This document shows, piece by piece, positions 2,439 to 20,600 of a stretch of DNA of 64,000 bases; position 1 is the stretch's first letter; each line of letters starts with the position of its first letter. Origin of the DNA: Owenweeksia sp. (GTDB lineage Bacteria; Bacteroidota; Bacteroidia; Flavobacteriales; Schleiferiaceae); assembly GCA_002695025.1 (NCBI GenBank), contig NZNV01000032.1, positions 1 through 64,000 on the forward strand, given 5' to 3'. Below the pieces are notes generated by a model. The model saw only the letters and a program-made list of their open reading frames with translations, ran no database searches and was not told where the DNA came from. A program made the translations under genes and the position numbers.

Positions 2439-3656
2439 CTAAAATATCACCTGGAACAGTAGCTGTCCCATTAAAGTGTTGTTGGGCAGGCTGGCGTTAT
2501 CATAAGAGGATACGGCTGCTTGTATCTTCAAGGCGTTTTGTTTGAAGTATTTGGAGAATCCGGCTGTCCAGCCTTTGGTGTCGGAGATCGCGGAATTGGC
2601 GTTGTTCTCAAATTCGGGCATCAGGGCGCTATAACGCACATCCAAAGCGTAACCGGAGCGGGTTACGTAACCTGCCTGTACATTGTAGGCGCTGCCCAGC
2701 GCTAAAAACTCACTGATCTGCGTAGGAATGAGGATCTCGGTAGCGGCTATATCGGTATAGGAGCCGTCCAGCGAAGTGGCTGTGGCCACCGTGTATTCGC
2801 CCAACAAAGAAAAGCCTTTGAACTTGAAGAGCAGGTCGGCATATACCTGGCGGTAGTCCGGCAACTGGGTTTCACCCAGGGCGTTGTACATCAGGAAATC
2901 ACCGTGCCCTTCGCCTACGGCATTGCTGGCGCCATCGTTATAGCTGGCCGCTGCACCGATCACGAATTTGGGTTTCTGCTCATGGCCGAGGTCCGCAATC
3001 TGCTTTTCGTTGCCTTCGTAAAACGTACCCAGGGGGTATACATCCAGGCGTGCTCCGTACTTCATACCGCCCAGGTCTATGTCGCGGGAATCGGCACCAA
3101 AGGAGTTTTTACCATCACCGGAGGTAACAGACAGCTGCGGCACCACGGCAAAGCGCTCCCCGCCAAAAGTGTTCTCCAGGTACAGTCCCAACTCACGACC
3201 GCTGTTGCTGTAAGCGGTGCTCAGGAGGCTGCGGTCCGGGAACTGCAGGTGATCTTCCATGATCAGCATCTCGCGGTTGTTGGTCACGTTCTGCTTTTGT
3301 CCGGCTGCGATCTTAAACTCCCCAAAAGGATTGTAACTGATCCAGGCATCCAAAAGGGGAGTGGGCTGACTGAAATCCGCCTGGAAGAAGAAGCTCACTT
3401 TTTCGTCCCTGGCCGTACCGGAAAAGTTGAGGTAGGTACGCCTGGCGTTAAAAAAGTAGTCGGCATCGTTCTCGCCTTGCTTTTCAAAGGCCAGCTGGGG
3501 TTGCAGCATACCGCTGATCTTAAAGGTATAGGCACCTTCATTGAGACCGAAATTCAGGCCGCTGCCCAATTCAAAATTGGCGGTATTGGGCTTTACCTGT
3601 GCGTTGCTTACAAGCACTCCAAGGCAAAAGGCGGATGATAGGATTATGTTTTTCAT
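2439..3656 (-). CDS. Outer-membrane porin (phosphate-selective porin O/P-like)
   Basis: The protein has 405 residues and a clean signal peptide (MKNIILSSAFCLGVLVSNAQ). The mature part is amphipathic beta-strand sequence with aromatic girdles and ends in phenylalanine (QVIF), as outer-membrane barrels do. An early segment about a dark FNARRTYLNFSGTARDEKVSFFFQADFSQPTPLLDAWI layout (around residues 67-105) is typical of OprO/OprP-like porins. It is the last gene of the operon, 4 bases after the M14 peptidase gene, and is a distant paralogue of the other porin (5208-6515), sharing the LLDAWI.YN motif. It probably lets small anionic substrates or cleavage products cross the outer membrane. Substrate is not known; the phosphate-porin name reflects only family similarity. 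Confidence 0.8.
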   Translation of the reverse strand: MKNIILSSAFCLGVLVSNAQVKPNTANFELGSGLNFGLNEGAYTFKISGMLQPQLAFEKQGENDADYFFNARRTYLNFSGTARDEKVSFFFQADFSQPTPLLDAWISYNPFGEFKIAAGQKQNVTNNREMLIMEDHLQFPDRSLLSTAYSNSGRELGLYLENTFGGERFAVVPQLSVTSGDGKNSFGADSRDIDLGGMKYGARLDVYPLGTFYEGNEKQIADLGHEQKPKFVIGAAASYNDGASNAVGEGHGDFLMYNALGETQLPDYRQVYADLLFKFKGFSLLGEYTVATATSLDGSYTDIAATEILIPTQISEFLALGSAYNVQAGYVTRSGYALDVRYSALMPEFENNANSAISDTKGWTAGFSKYFKQNALKIQAAVSSYDNASLPNNTLMGQLLFQVIF

Positions 3657-3660
3657 GGTA

Positions 3661-5205
3661 TTAGAGAGCTTCTTTATTTAGATATCGGTAAACGGGTAAT
3701 TCTGCACCCTCTTCGGTGTGCAGCACATCGTAATTCACAAAGCTGTTGGGCGCTTCAGGTTCCAGCGCTTCCACGGCCAGTCCGGCCCGGTCCTGATCCA
3801 TTCGGATCACGAAAGTTCCGGCCGGAAGGTCTTTCACAATGCGGGTTATAGAGGTGGAAACCCTTTGGCGGTGTACCCCTTCGTATTTTTCGGCCTCCTG
3901 TAAATAGTATTCCACGGTATAGCGTTCCACTTCTACAGATCTGCTTTGATTTAGCGTGTCTATTTTCAGTCCCAGGATCTTTAGCTTTTCGGCCAGCTTT
4001 GCCTGTTCCGGCATCAGGAGGTAAGCGCGGGGACGCGGACGACTCACCTGTGCTTTGGTCTGCCAGGCATCTTTCATGCGCACCTTAAAGTCTTTTTTCT
4101 CCACGCTTTCCAGATCTATCAGGGTCATGGAAACCTCGGTGACCGGGGTTTGATGTTTTACCACGGCCTCGGTCGGTTTGGCTTTGGCGCGGGCCAGCAC
4201 TTGTTTTACTTCTGCCGTTTCATCGTAAGCCGTTCTCAGGTACGAAAGACCCACCAGGAAGGTGGTGTATGCCCTGCGTTTGAAGGAAGTCCTACCGATG
4301 CCGATACCCCGCACTTCCACCAGGGTGGAAATGGTATTGGCCAGGGCGTAGGAGGTGGCGCTGGAGCGTGAGTTCAGGGAACCCTGGTGAAATTCCACCG
4401 CACCCAGCACATCCGAAGCGGAGAAGTAGGCATGGCTGGTGATCTCTTTGGACTCCAGCAGGCTGCCGGCTTCCTTCACAAAGGTCTCCTTCGTGTAGTT
4501 CCGGAGTTCTTCCGCTACGTTGAGGTTGCCGGAATAGAGGAACATCACGTCAAAGCCGTTGGTTACGCCCCATTCGCCAATGTGGGTAAAATCCCTGCGG
4601 TAGGGGCGGTATTCGTGAAAATCCAAGGCCACATGGGCCTGGTAATCACTGAAAGCCTGTTTGAGCGATACACTCTCCGGGGCCATGAGCTTGGTCTGAT
4701 CACGGTTCAGGTCCAGCCCGTTATGCGAATCCCGGGTCAGTTTTTCGCTGCCGTCAATATTGGCCATGGGAACTATGGCTATTTCCAGTCGATCGAGAAG
4801 ATAGGCGTGTTCGGGATTGTTCAGCAACTGATCGAGCAGATACAACAGACCTTCGGTGCTGGCGGGCTCGTTGCCGTGCAGGCCTCCCTGCAGCCAAACG
4901 CGTAACTTGTCAGAGCCTTTACCTCTTTTGAGTACGATCATGGGAATGTCTTTTCCCTTCTGGCTTTTCCCGATAAAGGAAAGGCTCATTACATCGGAGT
5001 GAGCGGCCAGGCGTTCGTTGATGAAGGCCATCATTTCCTCATAGTCGGTAAAGCCTCTTTTCTTTTGAAAGGCAGGGGTATTGATGTCCACCTCCGGATC
5101 AGGGAAGAACTTCTCGGTGATCTCCTTGCTTTGCGGGTTGGTGAGTTGTGCGGGGCAGTTAAAGGCCAGCAGCAGGGCGGATAGGATGAAAATAAACTGT
5201 CGCAT
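3661..5205 (-). CDS. Secreted M14-family zinc carboxypeptidase
   Basis: The start is placed at the ATG at 5205, which gives a proper signal peptide (MRQFIFILSALLLAFNCPAQ) and leaves 2 bases after the upstream porin; a longer frame to 5244 would overlap that gene. The 514-residue protein has a complete M14 site: HGNE zinc ligands (H110, E113), the substrate-binding NR pair in GLDLNRD (N167-R168), the third zinc ligand in LDFHEY (H197), and the catalytic Glu in the VEVRGIG motif (near residue 300). About 200 further residues after the catalytic domain match no domain I know. It should be periplasmic or outer-membrane associated, trimming peptides from the C-terminus. Operon context (porins, IadA-like amidohydrolase, dicarboxylate carrier) suggests feeding small acidic peptides or amides inward. 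The specificity is not readable. Confidence 0.88.
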   Translation of the reverse strand: MRQFIFILSALLLAFNCPAQLTNPQSKEITEKFFPDPEVDINTPAFQKKRGFTDYEEMMAFINERLAAHSDVMSLSFIGKSQKGKDIPMIVLKRGKGSDKLRVWLQGGLHGNEPASTEGLLYLLDQLLNNPEHAYLLDRLEIAIVPMANIDGSEKLTRDSHNGLDLNRDQTKLMAPESVSLKQAFSDYQAHVALDFHEYRPYRRDFTHIGEWGVTNGFDVMFLYSGNLNVAEELRNYTKETFVKEAGSLLESKEITSHAYFSASDVLGAVEFHQGSLNSRSSATSYALANTISTLVEVRGIGIGRTSFKRRAYTTFLVGLSYLRTAYDETAEVKQVLARAKAKPTEAVVKHQTPVTEVSMTLIDLESVEKKDFKVRMKDAWQTKAQVSRPRPRAYLLMPEQAKLAEKLKILGLKIDTLNQSRSVEVERYTVEYYLQEAEKYEGVHRQRVSTSITRIVKDLPAGTFVIRMDQDRAGLAVEALEPEAPNSFVNYDVLHTEEGAELPVYRYLNKEAL

Positions 5206-5207
5206 AC

Positions 5208-6515
5208 TTAAAAAGAAAAGGTGGTTATTACGCGGCCGATCCATTCGTTGTCGTTCATGGGATTGCCGGTATTGTCATTGGATCCGGGGGCACAATCCAC
5301 ATAAGTTAGTGCGCCCTGGATCTTAAAGCCGTAGCCGCGCATAAAGTATTTGGTGAGCCCCAGGGTGTAATAGTTGGGGCGGTTGTAAAAGGTGCCGTTG
5401 TTGAGAAAGGAGTGCCTGTCGGCATCCATGTGGCAATAGCGCGCATCTACCGAGATGAGGTTCTTGAAGACGTAGCCCATCTGCAGGTTATAGCCCTTGC
5501 CGAGCATCATACGGCCTTTCACGTAATTCTCCACATCCCGTTCACCGTCCACATCAAAACTGGTGGCCACGGTACCATCGTTACGTACGCGCTGGGTAAT
5601 GTCATCCGGTACGGTGGCAGCTGAGCCTACAAATTCACCCAGCATACTGAAGCCGTGGTATTTGAGCATAAAGTCTAGGCCGTATTTGGTGTAATTGGGA
5701 AGGGATTCCTCACCGGCATCGTTCAGGTAGATAATGTCGCCACTCCCGCGACCCCTGCGACTGCTCATGCCGCTGTTGTAACTGTAGGTGGCACCCACCA
5801 GCATTTTCAGTGAAAGTTCATGTACGATATCCCCCTGGCGGTATTGTCCGAACTTGGTAAACAGTCCGAAGGGAAGAAAATCCAGGCGACCACCCACTTT
5901 GAGGCCACCGTGATCCCTGCCGAATACGTTGGAGCCATCTCCGTTGGTAAGGGCAAAAGCGGGTTTAAAATAAGCGCCACCATCGGTACGGAAACGTCCG
6001 TCTACAAACAGACCGAACTCGCGGATACTGGCAAAGCTGGAGGTAACCCGGCTGCGCTCCACCAGTTGCAGGGTTTGTGAACCCTGCGACAGCTCCAGGT
6101 TGTCGGTAGGAGTTACTTTCTGTCCTACGGTGATCTGAATGTTGTCGGTAATGTTATAGCCGATCCAGGCGTCAAACAGTAAGCCGTCCGCTTCATCACC
6201 GGTCTCGGAGTTACCGCTGAAATCGGCCTGAAAGCGGTATTCAATTTTTTGCTGGACGGCATTACCGGAAAGCCTCAGTCGCAGCCTACGCATACGGAAC
6301 CTTTGCTGCAGCTGGTCCAGCTCCGGATCGGTATAGCTTTTAAACTCGTAGTAGGGCTGCATATACCCCCGCAGGTTAATGCGGTAATCCTCCTTGGCAT
6401 CGGAGAAGGTGAGGCCTTCTCCCATGGTGTAGTAGTGCAGCTTTTGTTCCTGAGCAAAAAACAGGGCCGGAGCCAGCAACAGGACCAGGAGTAACCCGAT
6501 GTAGTTCTTTTTCAT
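5208..6515 (-). CDS. Outer-membrane porin, OprO/OprP-like
   Basis: This 435-residue protein has a signal peptide (MKKNYIGLLLVLLLAPALFFAQ) and a long run of alternating amphipathic strands ending in TTFSF, the terminal phenylalanine expected of a barrel. The segment around residues 65-125 (FRMRRLRLRLSGNAVQQKIEY followed by RFQADFSG and LLFDAWIGYNI) follows the same plan as the porin at 2439-3656. It sits 10 bases after iadA and 2 before the peptidase gene, so all are co-transcribed. Two different porins in one operon suggest two substrates, or entry and exit of substrate and product. It is rich in arginine in the early strands, which would favour anionic solutes; that is inference. Confidence 0.8.
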   Translation of the reverse strand: MKKNYIGLLLVLLLAPALFFAQEQKLHYYTMGEGLTFSDAKEDYRINLRGYMQPYYEFKSYTDPELDQLQQRFRMRRLRLRLSGNAVQQKIEYRFQADFSGNSETGDEADGLLFDAWIGYNITDNIQITVGQKVTPTDNLELSQGSQTLQLVERSRVTSSFASIREFGLFVDGRFRTDGGAYFKPAFALTNGDGSNVFGRDHGGLKVGGRLDFLPFGLFTKFGQYRQGDIVHELSLKMLVGATYSYNSGMSSRRGRGSGDIIYLNDAGEESLPNYTKYGLDFMLKYHGFSMLGEFVGSAATVPDDITQRVRNDGTVATSFDVDGERDVENYVKGRMMLGKGYNLQMGYVFKNLISVDARYCHMDADRHSFLNNGTFYNRPNYYTLGLTKYFMRGYGFKIQGALTYVDCAPGSNDNTGNPMNDNEWIGRVITTFSF

Positions 6516-6525
6516 AAATTATTTT

Positions 6526-7665
6526 TTACTCAAAACTTTCTTTCAATATCACGGTACCGCTATCCATAGCTTTTTCACCACGCGCAAAAACCTCGGTGAG
6601 GTTCAGGTCGTCATCAAAGCAGCAGAGATCGGCATCCATGCCTACGCCAATGCGACCTTTGTTCTTGAGGCCGAGATTGGCAGCGGGATTGGTGGTAATG
6701 ATCTTAAAGGCTTCGGAAATATCCACCCCGCCTTTTTGCACCAGGTCTACTACTTCGGCCAGGTTCCGGTTTACCGGAGCTTTGCGGAAACCGATGAAGT
6801 TGCCGTCTTCATCCAGTTTGTCCAGCCCGGCATTGCCGTCACTGCTGAAGGTCATCTTTTCAATGGGCACGCCTTTCTCCAAAGCGTACAGTACGGATTT
6901 GTAGGGATCAGTGTATTTGGAGGCTCCGGTGGTGATATCGATCATACCTCCCAGTTGAGCAAACCTGATGGCCTCTTCAAAGAGCTCTTTGGTACGCCCT
7001 ACGTGGGTGGGTGAAATATTTTCAATGGGGAACTGGTGTTCTTCCACAATTTTGAAAAGCACATCCATTTTGGATTGGAGGTTCCCCAGGTGGAGGTGCA
7101 GTATGCCTTTTTTACCCCCTATCATGCCGCCTACGCGTACCTGACGCAAAAGACGGAGGAGATCCAGGTCGGTAGGATAGGAGGAGCGGATATCGGTTAT
7201 AGCGATCTTACAGCCGAGTACTTTATCGATGAAGATCATTTCATCCTGCACGTTTTCCATGATGTGAACGGGGTCCAGGCCGTAATAACCGGTGTACATA
7301 TAGGCGCTGATGCCTTCCGCTTCCAGGGCTTTTACCTTGGCGTAGAGGCTCTTGATACTGCGGGTGGAACCATCGGTACCCAACAGACCTACTGCGGTAG
7401 TGGTACCGCAGGCAATGAGCTCGGTTACCTTGATCTCGGGTGTCATGGAGGCAAAGCCGCGTTTGCCACCCGCACCTATCACGTGCACGTGCTGGTCGAT
7501 AAAACCAGGCGTTACGATCTTGCCCTGGGCATCCCAGGTATCACTGATACCGTTGTGTGAATCAATAGTATCCGAAATGGCGAGTATTTGACCACCACCC
7601 AGCAGCAGGTCTTTCTTACCCTGCTTTTCCGGGGCGTAAACGGTGGCGTTTTTAATGAGAAGCAT
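6526..7665 (-). CDS. iadA: IadA-like isoaspartyl dipeptidase, amidohydrolase superfamily
   Basis: The 379-residue cytoplasmic enzyme aligns with E. coli IadA (390 residues) at a constant offset of nine from the first metal ligand through the last catalytic residue. Visible equivalents: metal ligands H59 and H61 (FIDQHVH), carbamylated lysine K153, H192, H221, catalytic D276 (SSDGN), plus Y128, R160 and R224. IadA cleaves beta-aspartyl dipeptides and releases aspartate. One residue differs: E77 of E. coli, which I recall binds the substrate alpha-amino group, is K68 here (GGKRGF instead of GGGEAG). Substrate preference may therefore have shifted. The gene lies 1 base after dcuC, and its product may hand a dicarboxylate or amino acid to the carriers encoded nearby. 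Family assignment is secure; the exact substrate is not. Confidence 0.87.
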   Translation of the reverse strand: MLLIKNATVYAPEKQGKKDLLLGGGQILAISDTIDSHNGISDTWDAQGKIVTPGFIDQHVHVIGAGGKRGFASMTPEIKVTELIACGTTTAVGLLGTDGSTRSIKSLYAKVKALEAEGISAYMYTGYYGLDPVHIMENVQDEMIFIDKVLGCKIAITDIRSSYPTDLDLLRLLRQVRVGGMIGGKKGILHLHLGNLQSKMDVLFKIVEEHQFPIENISPTHVGRTKELFEEAIRFAQLGGMIDITTGASKYTDPYKSVLYALEKGVPIEKMTFSSDGNAGLDKLDEDGNFIGFRKAPVNRNLAEVVDLVQKGGVDISEAFKIITTNPAANLGLKNKGRIGVGMDADLCCFDDDLNLTEVFARGEKAMDSGTVILKESFE

Positions 7666-7666
7666 A

Positions 7667-9031
7667 TTAAATGTAATGATAGATTAGCATCACCACCAGG
7701 GCCACGCCCAGCGGGATTATGTTTCGTTTGACTATTTGCAGAGTGGTTACTTCAGCTATTTCAGCGGTGGCGATCAACACTCCGGCTACCGGTGAAACGG
7801 TACGCCCCATGGAGGCCGCCAGGTTCATCGGCAGGATGATGGAGGTGCTCTTTACACCCAGCTTGGTGGCGATATCCGGCACCAGGGGTGCAAAGGCAAA
7901 GAAGGCGGCATTGCCACTGCCCATCAGCATGGAGGCCAGGAAGATCATGATGGTCATTACCACCCCTATACCGATGGCTTCAAAGCCAAGGTGCTGGGAA
8001 ATATACACCAGTCCTTCAATGAACTCCAGGGCAATGAGCCCTTTGGCGAACATGTCGGCCGCAATGATGAGGGTTACCACGGTTTTAAAGATGTTGCCCA
8101 TCCCGTTCCAGAAGGTACTCAGCGACTGCATGGTGGCTTTGATGTTGCGCGTACGCACCAATTCAAAGATCAGCGCCACAAAGAGGCTGATGAACATAGC
8201 GGTAGTCGTGTCCAGCAAAACGGGTACATCCAAAACCTGGAAGAGGTTGGAGAAGATGATCAGCAGCACCAGCGGCAATACGGGAATGATGGCGTAGATC
8301 AGGGGTGCCTTCACTTCCTTTTTTTCTTTTTTCTCCACTTCTTCGGCTCCCCGGTCGTCCTTTTTATCAAAGTGGCGGTTCACAAAATAATAGCATACGG
8401 CCACCACTATGGACAATGGAATAACCAGGGGTATCTGGTGTTCCACAAAGTAATTGATGGAATTTTCCCCGGAAATGCTCACCGCACTGGCGGTAATGGC
8501 GGAAGCGGGACCAATCCCGAAAGCGGTACAGGCGGTGATCACAGATACTGCGGATAACCGGCTGACACCGATATTCAGAAGAATAGGGTAGACCGAAGCC
8601 ATTAACAGCAAGCCGAGACCCGCAGCAGAAGGGATGCACACAAAGAGCACCTGCCCGATGGGTATAACGGCTGCCGCGGTTATATGCGGATACTTCCGCA
8701 GCAGGCGCAGCGGTTTCATGGCGATGTGCACCAGGGCATCCGAAGCGCCTATCTTGTCAATATAAGCCACAAAACCACCGATGGCCATGATCATCAGACC
8801 TACCCCGGCATTGGTCTCGCTGAACGATTCCTTGATATAGCGGAAGAAGTCCAGGCCGGTAGCCCCGGTGGAGCGGTTCAGCGCAGGCAGTTCAAACTGA
8901 AATGCCCAGGCTAATACCAACATCACCAGGCCCGCAATAAGCAGTACCGCATGGGGGTAATATTTTTTCAATAGCAGCCTGGCTACTATCGCGATTACCA
9001 CAACGGCTATGATGGGGCCTGTAAAATCCAT
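7667..9031 (-). CDS. dcuC: DcuC-family C4-dicarboxylate transporter
   Basis: The protein has 454 residues and about 12 hydrophobic segments across its whole length. The region GLMIMAIGGFVAYIDKIG (near residue 75), then AMKPLRLLRKYPHI and IGQVLFVCIPSAAGLGLLLMA (110-145), and later MGSGNAAFFAFAPLVPDIA (about 365-385), are hallmark segments of the DcuC/DcuD family of inner-membrane C4-dicarboxylate carriers. A hydrophilic, lysine- and glutamate-rich loop around residues 222-245 separates two halves. DcuC proteins exchange or export succinate, fumarate, malate or aspartate. Being adjacent to an IadA-like enzyme resembles E. coli, where iadA neighbours membrane-protein genes. Direction of transport is not determinable here. 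Confidence 0.87.
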   Translation of the reverse strand: MDFTGPIIAVVVIAIVARLLLKKYYPHAVLLIAGLVMLVLAWAFQFELPALNRSTGATGLDFFRYIKESFSETNAGVGLMIMAIGGFVAYIDKIGASDALVHIAMKPLRLLRKYPHITAAAVIPIGQVLFVCIPSAAGLGLLLMASVYPILLNIGVSRLSAVSVITACTAFGIGPASAITASAVSISGENSINYFVEHQIPLVIPLSIVVAVCYYFVNRHFDKKDDRGAEEVEKKEKKEVKAPLIYAIIPVLPLVLLIIFSNLFQVLDVPVLLDTTTAMFISLFVALIFELVRTRNIKATMQSLSTFWNGMGNIFKTVVTLIIAADMFAKGLIALEFIEGLVYISQHLGFEAIGIGVVMTIMIFLASMLMGSGNAAFFAFAPLVPDIATKLGVKSTSIILPMNLAASMGRTVSPVAGVLIATAEIAEVTTLQIVKRNIIPLGVALVVMLIYHYI

Positions 9032-9053: not shown

Positions 9054-10001
9054 TTAAAAAGGTGAACCATCAATCCTGGTTCCGGGGGAGAACAGAAGGG
9101 CGGTATTTTCACCGTGCTGTTCAAACTCACCGGTAAGATCGGGATTACGGGTATAGGATTCATTGGGGTTGTTGGAAAGCGGCTCGATGTCAAAAGTGAG
9201 GATCACGTTGCCGTTGGCATCTTTCAGGGTCATGATGTCCCCGGCATTGTTGAGGTTCAGGTCGCCACTCGTTGAGGTTTGTACAAGGGCTCCGCCAAAA
9301 GTGCCATTAGGGTTACCACCACCAAATATCACCAGGGCTTTACCACCAGGTATGATGGTGCCGGTTGGGATCTTATGATTGGGCGTTCCGGTAGCCAGGT
9401 TTTCATCATCGTAAACCTCCCAGCCACTTACATCAAGGGGTTGGGTGGACAGGTTTACGAATTCCAGAAATTCATCTTCATTCTGGGCATAAGATCCGTT
9501 ACCGTTGGCATCACCTTCAAGACCACTGTTGGAAGGGTCGTACAATATTTCATTGAGAATGAGTTGGGGAGTTTGCACCACATCGTCATCCTCAATAAAA
9601 AGACTCACACTGGTGCCGGCATCAAAACGGCCTCCGCTGGCACTTTCAATACCAATCTGAATGGTTTCATTGCCTTCTTCCAGTTCATCCTGTACCGCAG
9701 TGATGGTTACCGTTTTGGTGATCTCACCAGCCGCAAAGGTCACAGCGGTGGTGCTGATGTTGTAGTCCACACCGTTGCCTTCCGCATTACCGGAGAGACT
9801 AAGGTTTACCGTTACTTCCTGTTCGGAACTGGCCGAAAGATTAATGGCAATATCCGTACTTCCGTTGTCTTCAGTTATAGCGGTAACGGGGGAGTTAAGC
9901 GTTATTTCAGGGCCGCCCAGCGAGTCGTCCACATCATCGGTCTCGCAGGACACCGCAGCTCCACACAGCAAGGCTGCGCCTAATATTTTGTTGAATTTCA
10001 T
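9054..10001 (-). CDS. Calx-beta/lamin-tail-domain surface lipoprotein
   Basis: The start at 10001 gives a lipoprotein signal, MKFNKILGAALLCGAAVSC, with Cys19 as likely lipidation site; an upstream in-frame start at 10124 would run into the preceding gene. The protein (315 residues) then has a Calx-beta domain (about residues 32-135, with SSEQEVTVNLSLSGNAEGNGVDY and the acidic FIEDDD end) and a lamin tail domain, LTD (about 145-315, from LILNEILYDPSNSG), with a DANGNG calcium-type loop. It probably sits on the outer membrane. Its LTD is a close paralogue of the one in the preceding gene, including the shared NNPNESYTRNPD motif. LTDs are found on many secreted bacterial nucleases and adhesins as binding domains. 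Ligand unknown. Confidence 0.78.
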   Translation of the reverse strand: MKFNKILGAALLCGAAVSCETDDVDDSLGGPEITLNSPVTAITEDNGSTDIAINLSASSEQEVTVNLSLSGNAEGNGVDYNISTTAVTFAAGEITKTVTITAVQDELEEGNETIQIGIESASGGRFDAGTSVSLFIEDDDVVQTPQLILNEILYDPSNSGLEGDANGNGSYAQNEDEFLEFVNLSTQPLDVSGWEVYDDENLATGTPNHKIPTGTIIPGGKALVIFGGGNPNGTFGGALVQTSTSGDLNLNNAGDIMTLKDANGNVILTFDIEPLSNNPNESYTRNPDLTGEFEQHGENTALLFSPGTRIDGSPF

Positions 10002-10029
10002 ACAATATATTTTTTGGGTAAAAACCGGC

Positions 10030-11127
10030 TTACAGCTTACTAAAGCGTGCCATGAAATCTTCCTGGCCGGAATCAGCTTTGAGGATGTAAATACCCTTTT
10101 GCAAGTTAGCCACAGAAATTCCATTCTGAAGGTCTTCGGTCTGCATCAACAGCTGTCCGGAAAGATTAAAGATCTTCACATGGCTCAGGTTGGCAGGCCC
10201 ATTTATAAAAAGTTTGTCGTTAGCCGGATTGGGATACACCGCAAGAGAGGTAGTTACCGGCTCATTTAAACCGATGTTCTGGTTGGTAATGGTTACCTCG
10301 GCTGAATCTGAAATACCGGTACCATCATTAGCGGTGGCAGTTACCCAGACCGTTCCATTACCGGTGGCCGTCAATAAGCCGCTGGCTGAAACGGTGGCTA
10401 CCACATTTCCGGCCGGCACCGACCAGCTTACGGTAGTGTCATCGGCAAAGGTGGGCATTACGATAGCTTCCATTTGCAGGGTGCCTCCGGGGGTGGAGAT
10501 GGTACTTGCACCTCCCTGACCCTGCACGGAAATATCCATTACCACAAACACGGTATCAAAGGGAGTTCCGTCAATTTTGGTTCCGGGGGAGAAAAGGATA
10601 GGTGTATTGTCCGCATGCTGCTCAAACAAACCGGTAATATCCGGATTACGGGTGTACGATTCATTGGGGTTATTGGAAAGGGCGTCTGAATCAAAGGTTA
10701 GGACGGTTTGTCCGTTGGGGTCCTTGATCAGGATCACTTCTCCGGAATTGTTGAGGTTCATACCTACTGCACTATCGGTTTTCAGCACTACAGCATTGCC
10801 AAAGGAGCCGGTAAGGGTGCCGCCACCAAAAACTACCAGGGCACCGCCCGGGGGAACCCAGGTGCCGGCAGGTATTACGTAGCGTAACTGTCCACCGTTG
10901 GCTACGGAGTCATCCCAGATCTCGTAACCACTGGCGTCAAAATTAGTGGTACTGGTGTTGTAGAATTCAATAAAGGAGTCTTCCTCCTGATCGTAAACGC
11001 CATCACCGTTGGCGTCACCTTCCAGCATGTCGTTGGAAGGATCGTAAAGTACCTCGTTAATAATCAGCTGGCCTGACATGGACAGGCAGGCGAATAAAAT
11101 ACAGCAAAGGGTGTAGTATTTTCTCAT
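10030..11127 (-). CDS. T9SS-secreted lamin-tail-domain protein with Ig-like domain
   Basis: First gene of the operon. The 365-residue product has a signal peptide (MRKYYTLCCILFACLSMSGQ), then an LTD (about residues 20-190, starting LIINEVLYDPSND, with the DANGDG loop), then a BIG2-like Ig domain (about 193-285, SWSVPAGNVVATVSASGLLT), and a C-terminal type IX sorting domain (about 295-365, with VYPNPANDKLFI and GIYILKADSG). It should be exported by Sec, cross the outer membrane by T9SS, and be attached to the cell surface. It is encoded 28 bases before its lipoprotein paralogue. Its promoter should lie in the 125-base divergent gap with the regulator, where two regulator-type repeats occur. 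Confidence 0.82.
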   Translation of the reverse strand: MRKYYTLCCILFACLSMSGQLIINEVLYDPSNDMLEGDANGDGVYDQEEDSFIEFYNTSTTNFDASGYEIWDDSVANGGQLRYVIPAGTWVPPGGALVVFGGGTLTGSFGNAVVLKTDSAVGMNLNNSGEVILIKDPNGQTVLTFDSDALSNNPNESYTRNPDITGLFEQHADNTPILFSPGTKIDGTPFDTVFVVMDISVQGQGGASTISTPGGTLQMEAIVMPTFADDTTVSWSVPAGNVVATVSASGLLTATGNGTVWVTATANDGTGISDSAEVTITNQNIGLNEPVTTSLAVYPNPANDKLFINGPANLSHVKIFNLSGQLLMQTEDLQNGISVANLQKGIYILKADSGQEDFMARFSKL

Positions 11128-11221
11128 AGTCGTTAAGTTTAAAAGAATAAAGGAGTGTTATGTGCTGAGAATAAATTCTCAAAGTCTCTACGAAGGAATT
11201 TTATTTGTGACTACCTTTAGC

Positions 11222-11253
11222 ATACCAATTATCTATTTTTAAGAATACCAATT
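11222..11253 (-). promoter_or_regulatory. Candidate MocR operator: two AATTGGTATG-type direct repeats, 23-bp pitch
   Basis: ATACCAATT occurs at 11222-11230 and 11245-11253, exactly 23 bases apart; read on the minus strand this is AATTGGTAT, the same orientation as the seven-gene operon it precedes. The second copy touches the TTG start codon of the regulator gene, allowing autoregulation. The same word with the same spacing recurs at 12757-12787. Paired direct repeats about two helical turns apart are the usual operator form of MocR/GabR regulators. Binding is inferred. Confidence 0.65.
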
Positions 11254-12755
11254 TGGAAACCGTATTAGAACGAATAGCCAAAAACTTTGAAGCGAAAACG
11301 CTCCGGCACAAATCCAGGAACAAGTCCTTACGCCTGTACCAGCGTCTGTACAACCTACTGAAAGACTCCATCATTAACAATGACATTCCGGGGGATACGG
11401 TGCTGCCGGCTACCCGTATTCTGGCCGATGCCCTGGAGCTTTCACGAAGCACGGTAAACCGGGCGTATGAGCTGCTTAGGCTGGAAGGGTACATTGATTC
11501 CTATAAAGGTTCCGGTCATGTAGTGCGCCAGATCCACCAGGATATTCTACCCCCCAAAAAAGAGGGCCGGGAAGAAGGCCGGTACCCGGAATTATCGGAA
11601 ACAGGGCAATCGTTCCTGAAGAACGTATCGCTGATCAACAGTACGGATGATAAGAGTATTGCCTTCCGGCCCGGGCTTCCACCGCTGGATATTTTCCCGG
11701 TGAAGGACTGGAAGAACCTATCCAATCTCTATTGGCGGTACATCAAATCCTCTGCGCTTTCCTATTCGCCTTCTTCGGGCATCGATCAGTTGAAGCGCAA
11801 CATTGCGAATTACATCAACCTGAGCCGCAACATCAAATGCGACCCACGGCAGATATTCATCGTTTCCGGTTCATTACAGTCCTTGTACCTGGTGGGTAAT
11901 ACGGTACTCAATCCCGGGGATTCCGTTATCATGGAAAATCCCACTTTCCCTAACGTGCACTCCATTTTCCGAAGCCTGCGCGCCAACATACAAGCGGTAG
12001 GCATTGATGAACAGGGACTGAGCCTGGAGCAGCTCCGCACGTTGAAACCAGATAGGACCAAGTTGCTGCATTGTACACCTTCCTGCCATTACCCCAGCGG
12101 GGTGCGGATGAGTGTGGAGCGCAGGAAGGCGTTGCTGGAATGGGCTTCTGAGAACGAAACTTTCATCATTGAGAACGATTACGAGCACGAGGTGCATAAC
12201 TACCGTGATCAGTCACCTTCGCTATTCAGCCTGGATAAAGAAGAGCGTGTCATTTACCTGAGCACTTTTAACCGGCTGTTACATCCTTCCATCCGGTTGG
12301 GGTATATGGTAGTGCCGCTGTACCTGCTGGATGCGGTGGAAGCCCTGCTCAAGCATTCACACCGTTTTGTTCCTCCATCGGTACAGGTGGTGATGAACCA
12401 GTTCATTGAAAAGCATCACCTGCATAATCATGTAAAAAAGGTTATTGAGGTGGCCGAGGAGCGGGAGCAGCTTTTTGTCAAGACCTTTGAGGAAGCTTTT
12501 CAGGGTAAGGTCAGGCTTCACCACAATACGATCAGGAGCCTGCATATACTGGCGGAGATCCCTCCCGGCCGGGACGACCGTGACGTAGTGAATGCCTTTG
12601 CCCGGCACAATATCATCGTACACTCCTACAGCAAGTGTTTTACTTCAGAGCCCAAGAAGCAGGGCTTTATTATGGGGTATTCCTCGGTACGGGCGCCTAT
12701 CATCCGCAAAAAAGTACAGCAGATGGCCCGATTATACCATTCTTCTTTTTCCTGA
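11253..12755 (+). CDS. MocR/PdxR-family regulator (GntR HTH fused to aminotransferase fold), PLP lysine replaced
   Basis: The 500-residue protein starts at a TTG; no ATG lies early enough to keep the HTH. Residues about 25-92 form a GntR winged helix (LPATRILADALELSRSTVNRAYELLRLEGYI). Residues about 135-500 are a fold-type I aminotransferase domain (TPSCHYPSG near 275, LSTFNRLLHPSIRLGYMV near 337-353). In GabR-type proteins the PLP Schiff-base lysine sits in the SFSK motif; here the position is R341 (STFNR). The EDDY motif that contacts PLP reads ENDY (N308). The domain may therefore bind no PLP or sense another ligand. It is divergent from the seven-gene operon and upstream of the hydrolase-DASS pair, with matching repeats before both. 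Regulation of both is inferred. Confidence 0.88.
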   Translation: METVLERIAKNFEAKTLRHKSRNKSLRLYQRLYNLLKDSIINNDIPGDTVLPATRILADALELSRSTVNRAYELLRLEGYIDSYKGSGHVVRQIHQDILPPKKEGREEGRYPELSETGQSFLKNVSLINSTDDKSIAFRPGLPPLDIFPVKDWKNLSNLYWRYIKSSALSYSPSSGIDQLKRNIANYINLSRNIKCDPRQIFIVSGSLQSLYLVGNTVLNPGDSVIMENPTFPNVHSIFRSLRANIQAVGIDEQGLSLEQLRTLKPDRTKLLHCTPSCHYPSGVRMSVERRKALLEWASENETFIIENDYEHEVHNYRDQSPSLFSLDKEERVIYLSTFNRLLHPSIRLGYMVVPLYLLDAVEALLKHSHRFVPPSVQVVMNQFIEKHHLHNHVKKVIEVAEEREQLFVKTFEEAFQGKVRLHHNTIRSLHILAEIPPGRDDRDVVNAFARHNIIVHSYSKCFTSEPKKQGFIMGYSSVRAPIIRKKVQQMARLYHSSFS

Positions 12756-12756
12756 T

Positions 12757-12787
12757 ATTGGTATGTTGAAATTAATAAGATTGGTAT
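12757..12787 (+). promoter_or_regulatory. Candidate MocR operator upstream of hydrolase-DASS pair
   Basis: ATTGGTATG begins at 12757 and again at 12780, a 23-base pitch identical to that of the pair at 11222-11253 but on the opposite strand, so again in the direction of the genes controlled. The pair begins one base after the regulator's stop codon and lies 53-83 bases before the hydrolase ATG. A near-match to the -7 box (GAAATTTG, 12828-12835) lies downstream, so the repeats would sit upstream of a promoter, as for an activator. Confidence 0.65.
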
Positions 12788-12839
12788 GTTTTTATAGTGC
12801 GGTTATCCTGATACTTTTACACATTCCGAAATTTGCAGA

Positions 12840-13763
12840 ATGATCCGATTGTACTCCATATTAGCTGCAGTGGTCTTGCTGTGGGCCTGTGACAACCCTA
12901 AAAAAATCGGGCAGGAACCCGATGAGCCGGATACTACGGAACTCAGCCTTACGGGTACGGGGGACTTTAACTTCAATTCCTATTCACCTCTGAGCGACAT
13001 GCCGGTGCGTATCTTTTACCATATACCGGAAAAAGCTATGAGTCATTCAGCTGCCCTGATGGTATTCCACGGGGCCGGGAGGGATGCGAAAGAAAGCCGT
13101 GATGCTTTGATCGCCAAATCCAATCAGTTCCAGGTGGTAATCATCGTGCCGGAATTTTCCAATGAATACTATCGCGGCAGTGATGCCTACAACCTGGGAA
13201 ATATATTTACGGATGGTGATCGCCCCTCTGCAGAAACCCTGAACCCGGAAGAGGAATGGACCTTTTCCATCATTGATCCGCTTTTTGATTTTTTCCGCGA
13301 AAAAACCGGGCTTGTAAGCGATGAGTATGATGTGTTTGGTCATTCTGCCGGTGCCCAGTTTGCGCATCGCTTCCTGTTCTTTAAGCCCGATGCCCGGCAT
13401 AAGCGCGTGGTTTCAGCCTCAGCCGGCTGGTATACCATGCCAGACCCGAGTGTTAACTTTCCTTACGGCTTAAAGAAAAGTCCTTTGGAAAGTAGCAGCC
13501 TCCAAACCGTTTTTGCCGCTCCGCTTACGGTTATCGTAGGCTTAAAGGATAACGACCCGAATGCATCCAGCCTGCGGCACAACAGCCAGGCCGATGCCCA
13601 GGGTGATGACCGCCTGGAACGTGCCCAGTATTTTTACTATCAAAGCCTGCAACTGGCGCAAACGGCTAATCTTGATTTTGGCTGGAAGTACCAGTCGCTA
13701 CCCAATGTGGATCACGATTTCAACGCCACTTCCACCGCTGCGGCTAACATTTTATACAAATAA
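12840..13763 (+). CDS. Lipoprotein alpha/beta hydrolase
   Basis: The 307-residue product has a lipoprotein signal, MIRLYSILAAVVLLWAC, with Cys17 as the likely lipid attachment site, then an acidic linker. The alpha/beta-hydrolase core shows an oxyanion region MVFHGAGRDA (about 78-87), the nucleophile elbow GHSAG (near 168-172), a candidate acid in GLKDND (near 237) and a candidate histidine in VDHDF (near 288). It is likely an esterase or peptidase tethered in the envelope. It shares an operon with the DASS carrier 6 bases downstream and follows candidate MocR sites, so it may release the carrier's substrate from an ester or amide. Substrate not known. Confidence 0.8.
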   Translation: MIRLYSILAAVVLLWACDNPKKIGQEPDEPDTTELSLTGTGDFNFNSYSPLSDMPVRIFYHIPEKAMSHSAALMVFHGAGRDAKESRDALIAKSNQFQVVIIVPEFSNEYYRGSDAYNLGNIFTDGDRPSAETLNPEEEWTFSIIDPLFDFFREKTGLVSDEYDVFGHSAGAQFAHRFLFFKPDARHKRVVSASAGWYTMPDPSVNFPYGLKKSPLESSSLQTVFAAPLTVIVGLKDNDPNASSLRHNSQADAQGDDRLERAQYFYYQSLQLAQTANLDFGWKYQSLPNVDHDFNATSTAAANILYK

Positions 13764-13769
13764 CTGATC

Positions 13770-15221
13770 TTGAGATTTACGCTGAATAAAAAGACGATAG
13801 GCCTTTTTCTGGGTCCGCTTGTTTTCCTGCTCATTATGTTTGGTTTTCAACCGGAAAATATGAGTGAAGCGGCTCACGCGGTATTGGCGAGCACGGCCTG
13901 GATCGCCATCTGGTGGATCACGGAGGCCCTGCCCATGGCCGTTACCGCTTTATTGCCCATTGTGCTGTTTCCTCTCACGGGAGGCAGCGATATCAAAGCC
14001 GCTGTAAGTGGTTACAGCCATCCCTTCATATTCCTTTTTATTGGTGGGTTTATCCTGGCCATAGCCCTGGAAAAATGGTGGCTGCACAAACGCATTGCCC
14101 TGGTGATCATCAACTGGGTAGGTACCAGTAAGCGAATGATCATCCTGGGTTTTATGCTGGCTACGGCATTCCTGTCCATGTGGATCTCCAATACCGCCAC
14201 AGCGGTGATGATGTTACCCATTGGGATGGCCATCATTGAAAAGCTGCGCTCCGATACCGAAGGAAAGGAGGAGAACCGTTTTGGTACGGTGCTGATGCTG
14301 GGCATTGCCTACAGCGCTTCCATTGGCGGTATAGCCACCCTCATCGGAACCCCGCCCAATCTGATCCTGGTGGGGATCATCCAGGAAACCTACAATGTAG
14401 ACCTTTCCTTTTTCGACTGGTTCAAACTGGCCTTGCCCTTTGCCATGGTGATGCTTTTTATCTGCTGGTTTTACCTTACCCGTTTCTCTTTTGACATTGG
14501 TACGCCTTCCATTCCCGGGGGGCGTGAGGAAATACGAAAACAACTGAAAGGGTTGGGTAAAATGTCCTTTGAAGAGAAATCGGTAGCCGTGGTATTTACC
14601 CTTACCGCACTGGCGTGGATCAGTCGTTCCTACTTGCTGGAGCCGATATTACCGGCTATTGACGATACGATTATTGCCATTGCCTCGGCCGTATTGCTCT
14701 TTCTCTTACCGGCTTCTCAAAAAGGTGAAAATCTTTTGCAGTGGGACGATGCGAAGAAAATCCCGTGGGGTATTCTCCTGCTTTTTGGCGGAGGTATTTC
14801 ACTGGCGGTGGCATTCGATAAAAGCGGACTGGCGGAATGGATCGGTAATCAATTTACCCTCTTTGAAGGTATGTACCTGCTGATCATCATTCTGTGCCTG
14901 GTAGCGGCCGTGAACTTCCTTACCGAGATCACCTCCAATACCGCCACTACGGCTGTGATATTGCCTTTGCTGGCGCCACTGGCGGTAGCGGTGGATACGC
15001 ATCCTTTCCTGCTGATGTCGGCAGCGGCTATTGCTGCTTCCTGTGCCTTTATGCTGCCGGTAGCTACACCACCTAATGCCCTGGTATTCGGCTCGGGGCA
15101 AATAAAAATGGAGGAGATGATGCGGGCGGGCTTCTTGCTGAACCTGATCTCTATACTGTTGATCTCGCTGCTGATCTACTTTGTGATGCCGCTGGTTTGG
15201 GATTTGCCGGTGTTGTATTGA
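13770..15221 (+). CDS. DASS (SLC13) sodium:dicarboxylate symporter
   Basis: This 483-residue membrane protein, starting at TTG six bases after the hydrolase stop, has the two signature SNT motifs of the divalent anion:sodium symporter family: SNTATAVMMLPIGMAII (near residues 149-165) and ITSNTATTAVILPLLAP (near 388-405). Other family segments include WWITEALPMAVTALLP near 50, IGTPPNLIL near 190 and LPVATPPNALVF near 430. Family members import succinate, malate, fumarate, citrate or sulfate with sodium. Together with DcuC this locus encodes two dicarboxylate carriers of unrelated folds, possibly uptake and export. No terminator is obvious after it. Confidence 0.9.
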   Translation: MRFTLNKKTIGLFLGPLVFLLIMFGFQPENMSEAAHAVLASTAWIAIWWITEALPMAVTALLPIVLFPLTGGSDIKAAVSGYSHPFIFLFIGGFILAIALEKWWLHKRIALVIINWVGTSKRMIILGFMLATAFLSMWISNTATAVMMLPIGMAIIEKLRSDTEGKEENRFGTVLMLGIAYSASIGGIATLIGTPPNLILVGIIQETYNVDLSFFDWFKLALPFAMVMLFICWFYLTRFSFDIGTPSIPGGREEIRKQLKGLGKMSFEEKSVAVVFTLTALAWISRSYLLEPILPAIDDTIIAIASAVLLFLLPASQKGENLLQWDDAKKIPWGILLLFGGGISLAVAFDKSGLAEWIGNQFTLFEGMYLLIIILCLVAAVNFLTEITSNTATTAVILPLLAPLAVAVDTHPFLLMSAAAIAASCAFMLPVATPPNALVFGSGQIKMEEMMRAGFLLNLISILLISLLIYFVMPLVWDLPVLY

Positions 15222-17686: not shown

Positions 17687-20600
17687 ATGAAGAGACTATT
17701 ACTGTTATTTTCAACGGTATTATTAGTCGGTACACATGTTTTTGCTCAGGCTCCCTTTACCTTATCTACGGCTACAGGGACTAATTACACTGCTGCAAAC
17801 GGAGTAACCGGCAATGCCGCTATCACTTTTGCGATAGAAAACACCAATTCTACCCCCTATGTTTTAACGGATGTGACAGTGCATTTCAGCACCCACAGTA
17901 ATCCCACAAACGTAGACCTGTGGTATACTTCCACATCCTTATCAGGGCCGGCCAGTATTGCTACACCTGCCTGGAATAAGATTAATGCAGCGCCAGTAGT
18001 GGTGTCCGTTACGGCCAATGACTACGTCCCTGTATTTACGAACATGAATTTTACAATCCCAGGTAACACTACCTACCGTTTTGCTATTCAATCCTCAAAG
18101 GATATTGACTATAGCGGAGCAAGTCCTGTGCCAAGCCCGAATACTTTTTCGGCCAACGGGATCAATTTCCACGTGGGAGGTGCCCAGATTTCAGGAAGCA
18201 ATGTGGGCTATGGAGGTTCATTTACCAGCCCTACCAATAATCCACGTTGGTTTACCGGGGCAGTAACCTTAAAGCCCGGCATATCCGGGACCTGTACCCC
18301 TTTTACTAATTTCAGCCTGGATAGTACGAATACTACCGGTGTTGAAGTGAACTGGACTCCGGGTACCGGGAATTCCTCCTTTTTTATGGAGTACGGCCCG
18401 GCCGGTTTTACACCGGGTACCGGTACGCCTATCACAGGAACGTATCCCGGTTCTCAGCCTCCTGTATATATAGGAAGTCTTACTCCGGACACCGATTATG
18501 ATATTTATTTCGGAGAGATATGTAATTCCGGTGCGGATTCAGTGGCATTTCCCGGCCCTCAAACCGTGCGTACAGAGCCTACATGTCCGCCACTTCCGAT
18601 GTCAACCGTATTCACGGTATCAGCTATAACTCCTACCAGTGCCCAAATTGACTTTACCACTACAGAAACAAATTTTGACTACGAGTATGGCCCCACGGGC
18701 TTTACTCCAGGCAATGGTACGGTCGGATCTTCGGGTTACCCGGTAGTGGTTACGGGGCTTACCGGCTCTACCAACTATGATGTATATGTACGGGTTAACT
18801 GTACCGGATCGGGTAACGGAGTTTCCCAATGGTCAGGACCGGTTAACTTTACTTCGGGCTGTGTGGCCATTCCCGCGCCCTACAGTTATGATTTTGAAAT
18901 TGCCACAGTAGGTCATTGGGATGGTCTGGACAATTGTTGGGAAGTTATTTCCAATAATCCCGGAACTACTGCCAGTGGAGGATATTCCTGGGAATTCAGG
19001 AATACACCTCAAACCACCTCAGGAACTGCAACCGGTCCTGATCGTGACCATACCCTGGCTCCGGCTACGGGCGGTGTTTTTGTTACGGCAGACGTTTCCG
19101 GTTCAGCAGTCGGTGATTCCACAATATTGCTATCCCCCGTTGTGGACGTAAGTACGTTGACCACGCCAGAATTGCGTTTTTGGTATCATAAATGGGGAAC
19201 CACGGCCCTAATGCCTGACATTCATGTGGATATCAAAGATGGAAGTTCCTGGACCAGGAATTTTATAGTCATTCCAGGTGTAACCCAAACTTCTCCTGCC
19301 GATCCTTATATAGAAGCTAAAGCCATTTTAACCGGTTTCACGACTACTGCACAGGTACGTTTCCGTATTGTCAGCCTGGGCTGTTGTGCCGGTGATATCG
19401 GTTTTGACGATTTTTCCATTGCTGAAGCTCCGGCTTGTCCTGAGCCTGGTTTCCTCAGCACAGGTGTTATAACCAACTCCTCTGCAGAAATCACCTTCAA
19501 TGGCCTGGGTTCTAATTTTAATTTTGAGTGGGGCCCAACCGGCTTTATGCAGGGAACCGGATCTACCGGCAGCGGAGGTAATCCTTACGTGATTACCGGT
19601 TTAAGTGCTTCCACAACTTACGATGTTTACGTTCAGGCCGACTGCTCTGGCAGCGGTAATGGTACTTCTATATGGGTAGGACCACTTACTTTTACTACAG
19701 CGGCATGTGACACCTCGGATGCGTGTAACTACTTCGTAGATATGTTCGATAGCTTCGGTGACGGATGGAACGGTAACGTTTTTGGTATCATACAGAATGG
19801 TGTTCTGGTGGACGAATTCGGAGCCGGCTTTACCAACGGAACCACCTTTGGACCGGCCAACCCATTATTGTGTGACAGTGTTACTACCTATATAGTGGTA
19901 ACTACGGACGGAGGGTTCAATGATGAATGTAGTTTTGATGTTATCACGCCTTACGGAAGCCCGGCTGCCTCTTTTGCCGGGGGTATTCAATTCAATTTAG
20001 GAGATACCCTGTTAACGTTTACCACACAGTGTACGCCTCCTCCATGTCCGGATCCCTTTAATGTGAATATAAGTGCGGTAAATTCCAATACCGTGTTCTT
20101 CAACTTCTCAGTTGGTTCCGGTTCTACCTTTAATTATGAAGTAGGGCCTACCGGCTTTATGCAAGGTACGGGTACTGTAAGTTCAGGAGGAAATCCCCAT
20201 TCCATTGGTGGGTTGCTTCCTAATACTACCTATGACCTGTATATTCAGAATAACTGTAATGCATCCGGAGATGGTACTTCAGCCTGGGTAGGTCCCATTA
20301 CCTTTACCACAGCCTGTGTGCCCTTTACCGCTCCCTGGAGCGAAAGTTTTGATGGCTCTACCTGGATATCCAGTAACACTTTTAACGGTTTAGGTGATAC
20401 CATTGATAACTGCTGGGACCGCAATCCTGTACCTGGTGCGTACAGCTGGACGGTACGAGGCCCCGGAACAGTAAGCTTTACCACTGGCCCTATTGGCGAT
20501 AACAGTGGTACCGGAAAATATATGATGCTGGAAGCAAGTAATGGTGCAGCTGGAAACGTTGCTGAATTATATACCCCTATCATTGATATCACTGCTCTGG

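Follow-up and report, generated by a model that had tools for sequence, protein, structure and literature searches.

In the 64,000-nucleotide stretch of Owenweeksia sp. DNA analysed here (the window), the gene of a MocR/GabR-type regulator lies between two pairs of direct repeats. We consider it likely, from the placing of these repeats, that both ATTGGTAT-N15-ATTGGTAT pairs are operators of the regulator encoded between them, through which it would activate the operons on its two sides and repress its own gene. The pairs themselves are very probably genuine operators and belong to a known type, the direct repeats of MocR proteins, and in this a previous sequence-only reading of the DNA was right in essence; the beta-aspartyl theme of the regulon and the placing of the regulator in a clade without the PLP anchor are new here.

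Two direct-repeat pairs flank a MocR-type regulator gene

The exact word common to both flanks of the regulator gene is the 8-mer ATTGGTAT, present in four copies. These form one pair on the - strand (11222-11252) and another on the + strand (12757-12787), and the pitch is exactly 23 bp in each. Each pair is oriented in the direction of transcription of the genes that it precedes, a seven-gene block on the - strand and a hydrolase-DASS pair on the + strand. The sequence-only reading had described the two direct-repeat pairs, their pitch and their orientation as we find them, but its shared word, the 10-mer AATTGGTATG, occurs exactly only once (11221-11230), the remaining three copies each differing at one flanking base. 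The regulator gene and the boxes are as follows.

11253-12755, + strand: MocR/GabR-type regulator, 500 aa, with the PLP lysine replaced by Arg341 (codon 12273-12275) and the PLP-ring aspartate by Asn308 (codon 12174-12176)
11245-11252, - strand: operator box 1, divergent side, exact ATTGGTAT, abutting the TTG start codon of the regulator at 11253
11222-11229, - strand: operator box 2, divergent side, exact ATTGGTAT, pitch 23
12757-12764, + strand: operator box 1, downstream side, exact ATTGGTAT
12780-12787, + strand: operator box 2, downstream side, exact ATTGGTAT, pitch 23

At the point matching the TTG start codon of the window, the orthologue at locus L004 has an ATG.

The paired word is not common genome-wide, the concern that had been attached to the sequence-only reading: in the 4.46-Mb genome the exact pair was found at the two regulator-flanking places and nowhere else, against about 0.004 exact pairs expected from base composition and none for a reversed control pattern. 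With up to 3 mismatches, the genome gave 81 matches to the pair and 55 to the control pattern, so that outside the two regulator-flanking places it resembled background and held no convincing further operator. The further paired sites that had been predicted elsewhere were thus not found by either the exact or the 3-mismatch search, and the regulon is local to its regulator, with no wider one in this genome. Since the single word with one mismatch was no commoner in the window than in shuffles, the evidence lies in pairing and position and not in the word itself.

The regulator joins an N-terminal GntR-type winged helix (PF00392, residues 28-91, 37.4 bits; cut-off 27) to a C-terminal fold type I aminotransferase domain (PF00155). 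By sequence and fold, the closest solved regulators are GabR and PdxR, both MocR proteins, with GabR the best match (mean pLDDT of the model, 86). MocR proteins are head-to-tail dimers whose binding sites are often direct repeats with a spacing of whole helical turns, and most of their motifs contain a TGG or TGT core (PMC5320631). The operator here, two direct repeats at a conserved pitch of 23, about two turns, fits this description.

Genes under the sites suggest use of beta-aspartyl peptides

The genes preceded by the two pairs are listed in the order in which they would be transcribed, first the seven-gene operon and then the downstream pair.

10030-11127, - strand: LTD1, lamin-tail-domain protein with a type IX secretion tail, first gene of the seven-gene operon
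9054-10124, - strand: LTD2, Calx-beta and lamin-tail-domain protein, listed start probably too early
7667-9031, - strand: DcuC-family C4-dicarboxylate carrier (NF037994, 383 bits; cut-off 100)
6526-7665, - strand: IadA, isoaspartyl dipeptidase (TIGR01975, 375.7 bits; cut-off 331), with solved relatives
5208-6515, - strand: porinB, outer-membrane porin-like, no Pfam match itself, partial likeness to porinA in relatives
3661-5244, - strand: M14 zinc carboxypeptidase (PF00246)
2439-3656, - strand: porinA, Porin_O_P family (PF07396)
12840-13763, + strand: relative of poly(aspartic acid) hydrolase-1, predicted lipoprotein (PDB 6ve6, E 1.8e-59; 9o7u, E 4.5e-56)
13770-15221, + strand: DASS sodium-coupled dicarboxylate/anion symporter (TIGR00785, 339 bits)

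As listed, the LTD2 frame shares 95 bases with LTD1, and its true start is probably an internal MKFNKILGAALLCGAAVSC with a lipoprotein-type signal. Further along the window (17687-24850) lies a gene for a 2387-aa secreted-looking protein with many fibronectin-like repeats and a type IX sorting-like C terminus.

What had earlier been called a hydrolase is more precisely a relative of poly(aspartic acid) hydrolase-1, the homology covering the whole catalytic domain (residues 39-304 against 6ve6), and this gives the regulon a clearer theme, that of beta-aspartyl peptides. The bonds cleaved by PahZ1 of Pedobacter sp. KP-2 are beta-Asp amides (PMC4456602), and by homology both the hydrolase and IadA would act on beta-aspartyl bonds. 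Taken as a set, the genes probably form a regulon for the utilisation of beta-aspartyl peptides, comprising breakdown and uptake. Cyanophycin is a possible natural substrate, to which gene linkage lends no support. Cyanophycinase scored over cut-off in 9 of 15 orthologue-bearing genomes, and in the genome of the window it lies on a different contig (G000:C7:16416-17210; TIGR02069, 220.9 bits); beta-Asp-Arg, the product of cyanophycinase, would be a substrate of IadA. A literature search yielded no paper that places isoaspartyl or polyaspartate genes under a MocR regulator, and the main text of PMC5320631 names no Bacteroidetes MocR regulog with these genes.

The pairs are conserved across Bacteroidota loci and move with their genes

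A scan of 84,980 species genomes with the search peptides ENDYEHE and E[NED]PTFPNV gave 70 loci, from Bacteroidota wherever the record title names a group; 67 of these, together with the window's own locus, made up a footprint set of 68. Each of the regulon genes recurs around the regulator in 45-57 of the 68 loci, apart from DASS (30), several loci being cut by contig ends. A degenerate pair (pitch 23, at least 13 of 16 matches) was present on the divergent side in 60/68 loci and on the downstream side in 36/68, with almost none on the opposite strand in either place; at this threshold the downstream count reflects words that have drifted and, in some loci, a hydrolase gene that is missing from that position.

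The pitch itself is conserved. In 1.18 Mb of these loci, 98 pairs with at least 14 of 16 matches were found at pitch 23, compared with 6.5 on average and 14 at most for the other pitches from 12 to 60. Most of them (81/98) lay on the right strand within 1.2 kb upstream of LTD1 (31), the hydrolase gene (29), LTD2 (13) or dcuC (8). Where genes have moved, the pairs have moved with them: at L033 the hydrolase gene is 4.3 kb away and has its pair there too, and at L065, L076 and L089 a pair was likewise found with the relocated gene. Several Flavobacteriaceae have the two gene sets in exchanged positions around the regulator, with pairs still standing in front of both, and in loci with a reduced set the pair stands in front of dcuC-iadA. 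The earlier proposal of one regulon bracketing its regulator is therefore strongly supported by phylogenetic footprinting, in that the pairs are conserved, precede the same genes and travel with them.

Drifted words were seen at the retained 23-bp pitch, ATTGGACTGC twice downstream of the regulator at L004 (about 3000-3040) and ATTGGTCT in the upstream region of L005 and at L042, which suggests co-evolution of word and regulator. Within the family the regulon is patchy (7 carriers among 37 members searched, the window's genome counted), and two genomes of the window's own genus (G001 and G002) have neither a regulator orthologue nor operator pairs.

The PLP site of the regulator is rewritten throughout its clade

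The cofactor site of GabR includes Lys312, which forms the PLP aldimine, Asp279, which holds the pyridine nitrogen, and Tyr205, which stacks, while Arg207 and Arg430 hold the carboxylate of GABA (Table 2, PMC6917764). The equivalents of Lys312, Asp279, Tyr205 and Arg207 were Arg, Asn, Phe and Asn in all 68 orthologues, counts that are biased at positions 279, 205 and 207, where the scan peptides favour these residues, and free of that bias at position 312. The equivalent of Arg430 was Lys in 60/68. In an unselected sample of 395 genomes of the class, searched with the whole protein, all eight orthologues had the same residues, including Arg at 312 and Asn at 279. A wide gap in score separated these orthologues (about 500 bits) from the next MocRs (171 bits), and among the latter, those inspected in that sample had Asp279 in all cases and Lys312 in all but four. 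In a quick tree, the regulator clade forms one side of a fully supported branch. The earlier reading of the regulator could not see this rewriting of the PLP site, Arg for Lys and Asn for Asp.

A survey of the family states that every MocR cluster conserves Lys312 and Asp279 (PMC6677901), and EnuR in which the PLP lysine is replaced becomes uninducible (PMC8739950). For the regulator clade as a whole, the simplest reading of these residues is that the ligand is probably sensed without a PLP Schiff base. We tentatively propose that this is a Bacteroidota-wide MocR clade, with Lys to Arg and Asp to Asn fixed, which has given up PLP Schiff-base chemistry, in whose former cofactor pocket the signal may be sensed directly, be it a beta-aspartyl peptide or a product that is aspartate or a dicarboxylate, and which may control a dedicated beta-aspartyl polymer regulon through GabR-style operators. 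It is also possible, though doubtful, that PLP is still used, held non-covalently by the phosphate arginine or as a preformed adduct with an amino acid, only the Schiff base to the protein having been lost. Retention of the equivalents of the phosphate ligand Arg319 (68/68) and of Tyr281 (65/68) is in keeping with such a use, and replacement of the equivalents of Lys312, Asp279, Tyr205 and Arg207, all four together, argues against it. As this alternative touches the sensing step alone, the operator reading is unaffected by it.

A second set of proteins with Arg at the PLP lysine position was seen among other Bacteroidota MocRs (L013, L136, L143 and L147). Asp279 is kept in all four, and L013, L143 and L147 also have no phosphate arginine (FGRSLPSGFSYGF type). 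By their residues, these four represent an independent loss of the PLP anchor.

Promoter geometry suggests activation of the targets and autorepression

Bacteroidota promoters carry a -7 element TAnnTTTG, with its T at -12 and its G at -5 (PMC6847099). With offsets counted from the first base of box 1, across 49 divergent and 35 downstream dereplicated sites, same-strand -7 boxes were concentrated at offset 54-55 on both sides. A box matching at least 5 of 6 positions was found there at 24/49 divergent and 26/35 downstream sites (control positions, 0 to 6), and one matching at least 4 of 6 at 43/49 and 32/35. On the opposite strand, TAnnTTTG occurred at offset 33 in 40/49 divergent sites and in 0/35 downstream sites. 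The corresponding elements in the window are these.

11212-11219, + strand: predicted -7 box of the regulator promoter, TACCTTTA, offset conserved; predicted start site 11224, inside box 2
11191-11198, - strand: predicted -7 box of the seven-gene operon, TTCCTTCG, weak (4 of 6), offset 54; predicted start site 11186
12812-12819, + strand: predicted -7 box of the hydrolase-DASS operon, TACTTTTA, offset 55; predicted start site about 12824

A third operator box on the divergent side was considered and rejected, extra word-like matches at offsets 34 and 57 being explained by the -7 box at offset 54-61. A sigma-70 promoter and terminator scan of the sequence was uninformative, as expected for Bacteroidota.

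Relative to the predicted starts of the target promoters, the boxes lie at about -66 to -59 and -43 to -36 (centres near -62 and -39), which is an activator position. Relative to the predicted start of the regulator, box 2 lies at -2 to +6 and box 1 at +22 to +29, over the start region of the gene itself, which is a position for autorepression. From this site geometry alone we infer the sign of both effects. The self-control that had been drawn from a box touching the start codon is probable: the box does abut the codon, and the pair also covers the predicted start site. The -7 box of the regulator is better conserved than those of the targets, as would be expected if a strong promoter under repression stood next to weak ones that are activated.

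A pure repressor of all three promoters, released by ligand in the way that EnuR acts on the ectoine genes, is an unlikely account of these sites. Many MocR/GntR proteins repress, EnuR operators overlap the core promoter (PMC8739950), and the regulator's own promoter is covered here; at the targets, however, dozens of loci have the boxes at a fixed distance upstream on either side, with the nearer box ending some 36 bases short of the start site, the usual position of an activator, and the target -7 boxes are weaker than that of the regulator. It is far less probable still that the word pairs belong to another regulator, or are Bacteroidota promoter or leader elements that have nothing to do with the MocR protein. 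The promoters of this phylum are rich in AT, as is part of the pair spacer, but the words fall outside the TTTG/TAnnTTTG consensus, and the pair adjoins the regulator in most orthologous loci and travels with its neighbours. Moreover, among 60 related genomes the degenerate pair was found in four, every one a regulator carrier; three other carriers had drifted words, and the pair was missing from all 53 genomes without the regulator.

For the reading that we prefer, activation of both operons with autorepression, a head-to-tail dimer of the regulator would be expected on each direct-repeat pair. Bound upstream at centres near -62 and -39, it would activate the LTD-dcuC-iadA-porin-M14 operon and the hydrolase-DASS operon, the trigger being a beta-aspartyl peptide or a product of one. 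The divergent pair would also cover the transcription start of the regulator, so that binding there would repress it, as in GabR. With this regulon the cell would be able to cleave isoaspartyl peptides or beta-linked aspartyl polymers, take up the fragments and break these down to aspartate. Two observations count against this explanation, the weak -7 box of the seven-gene operon and the presence of the downstream pair in only 36/68 loci.

Relation to known regulators and enzymes

GabR of Bacillus subtilis, of the MocR subfamily of GntR regulators, has the same domain architecture and the closest full-length fold. Its direct-repeat operator likewise lies in a divergent region, overlaps the regulator promoter and serves activation of the neighbouring operon (PMC9452892), and the geometry here appears to follow the same logic of a shared divergent operator for autorepression and activation. 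The two proteins are 27 percent identical and have other target genes, the GabR residues Lys312, Asp279, Tyr205 and Arg207 having given way to those described above. Whereas the GabR repeats are wider-spaced and accompanied by an inverted box, those here have a pitch of 23 with no inverted box seen, and unlike in GabR a second operator copy lies downstream of the regulator gene. The GabR half-site ATACCA is contained in ATACCAAT, the reverse complement of the operator word.

EnuR, the ectoine regulator, is likewise a MocR protein over a catabolic gene set, and one in which the lysine position has been functionally tested (PMC8739950); it acts as a repressor and depends on its PLP Lys302, a residue kept in all 278 proteins inspected, whereas the whole clade here has Arg. 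The hydrolase at 12840-13763 is a clear homologue of PahZ1 of Sphingomonas sp. KT-1 and Pedobacter sp. KP-2, and differs in belonging to a conserved, regulated set that also includes carriers, porins and an isoaspartyl dipeptidase; in the literature no regulon was found described for PahZ1.

It is most improbable that the regulator is the vitamin-B6 regulator PdxR, although it passes the NCBIfam equivalog model of that name (NF052282; 352.5 bits, cut-off 320) and shares a similar fold with B. clausii PdxR (structures 7pq9 and 7zla): the site pairs precede LTD, hydrolase or dcuC genes, the conserved neighbours include no B6 gene, and the whole clade has other residues in place of the PLP lysine and aspartate. 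It is a warning that this protein would receive the name PdxR from the current family model, against its gene context and lost PLP residues.

Implications

Metabolism of beta-aspartyl peptides and polyaspartate is known from isolated enzymes, with no described regulon found in the literature, and the operators reported here offer a precise, testable regulon for the use of these compounds in Bacteroidota. The mechanism described for the MocR family is PLP aldimine chemistry, and the regulator clade also provides a natural series of MocRs that have no PLP lysine. PLP-free sensing, if true, would illustrate the way in which an aminotransferase fold can turn into a sensor that needs no cofactor.
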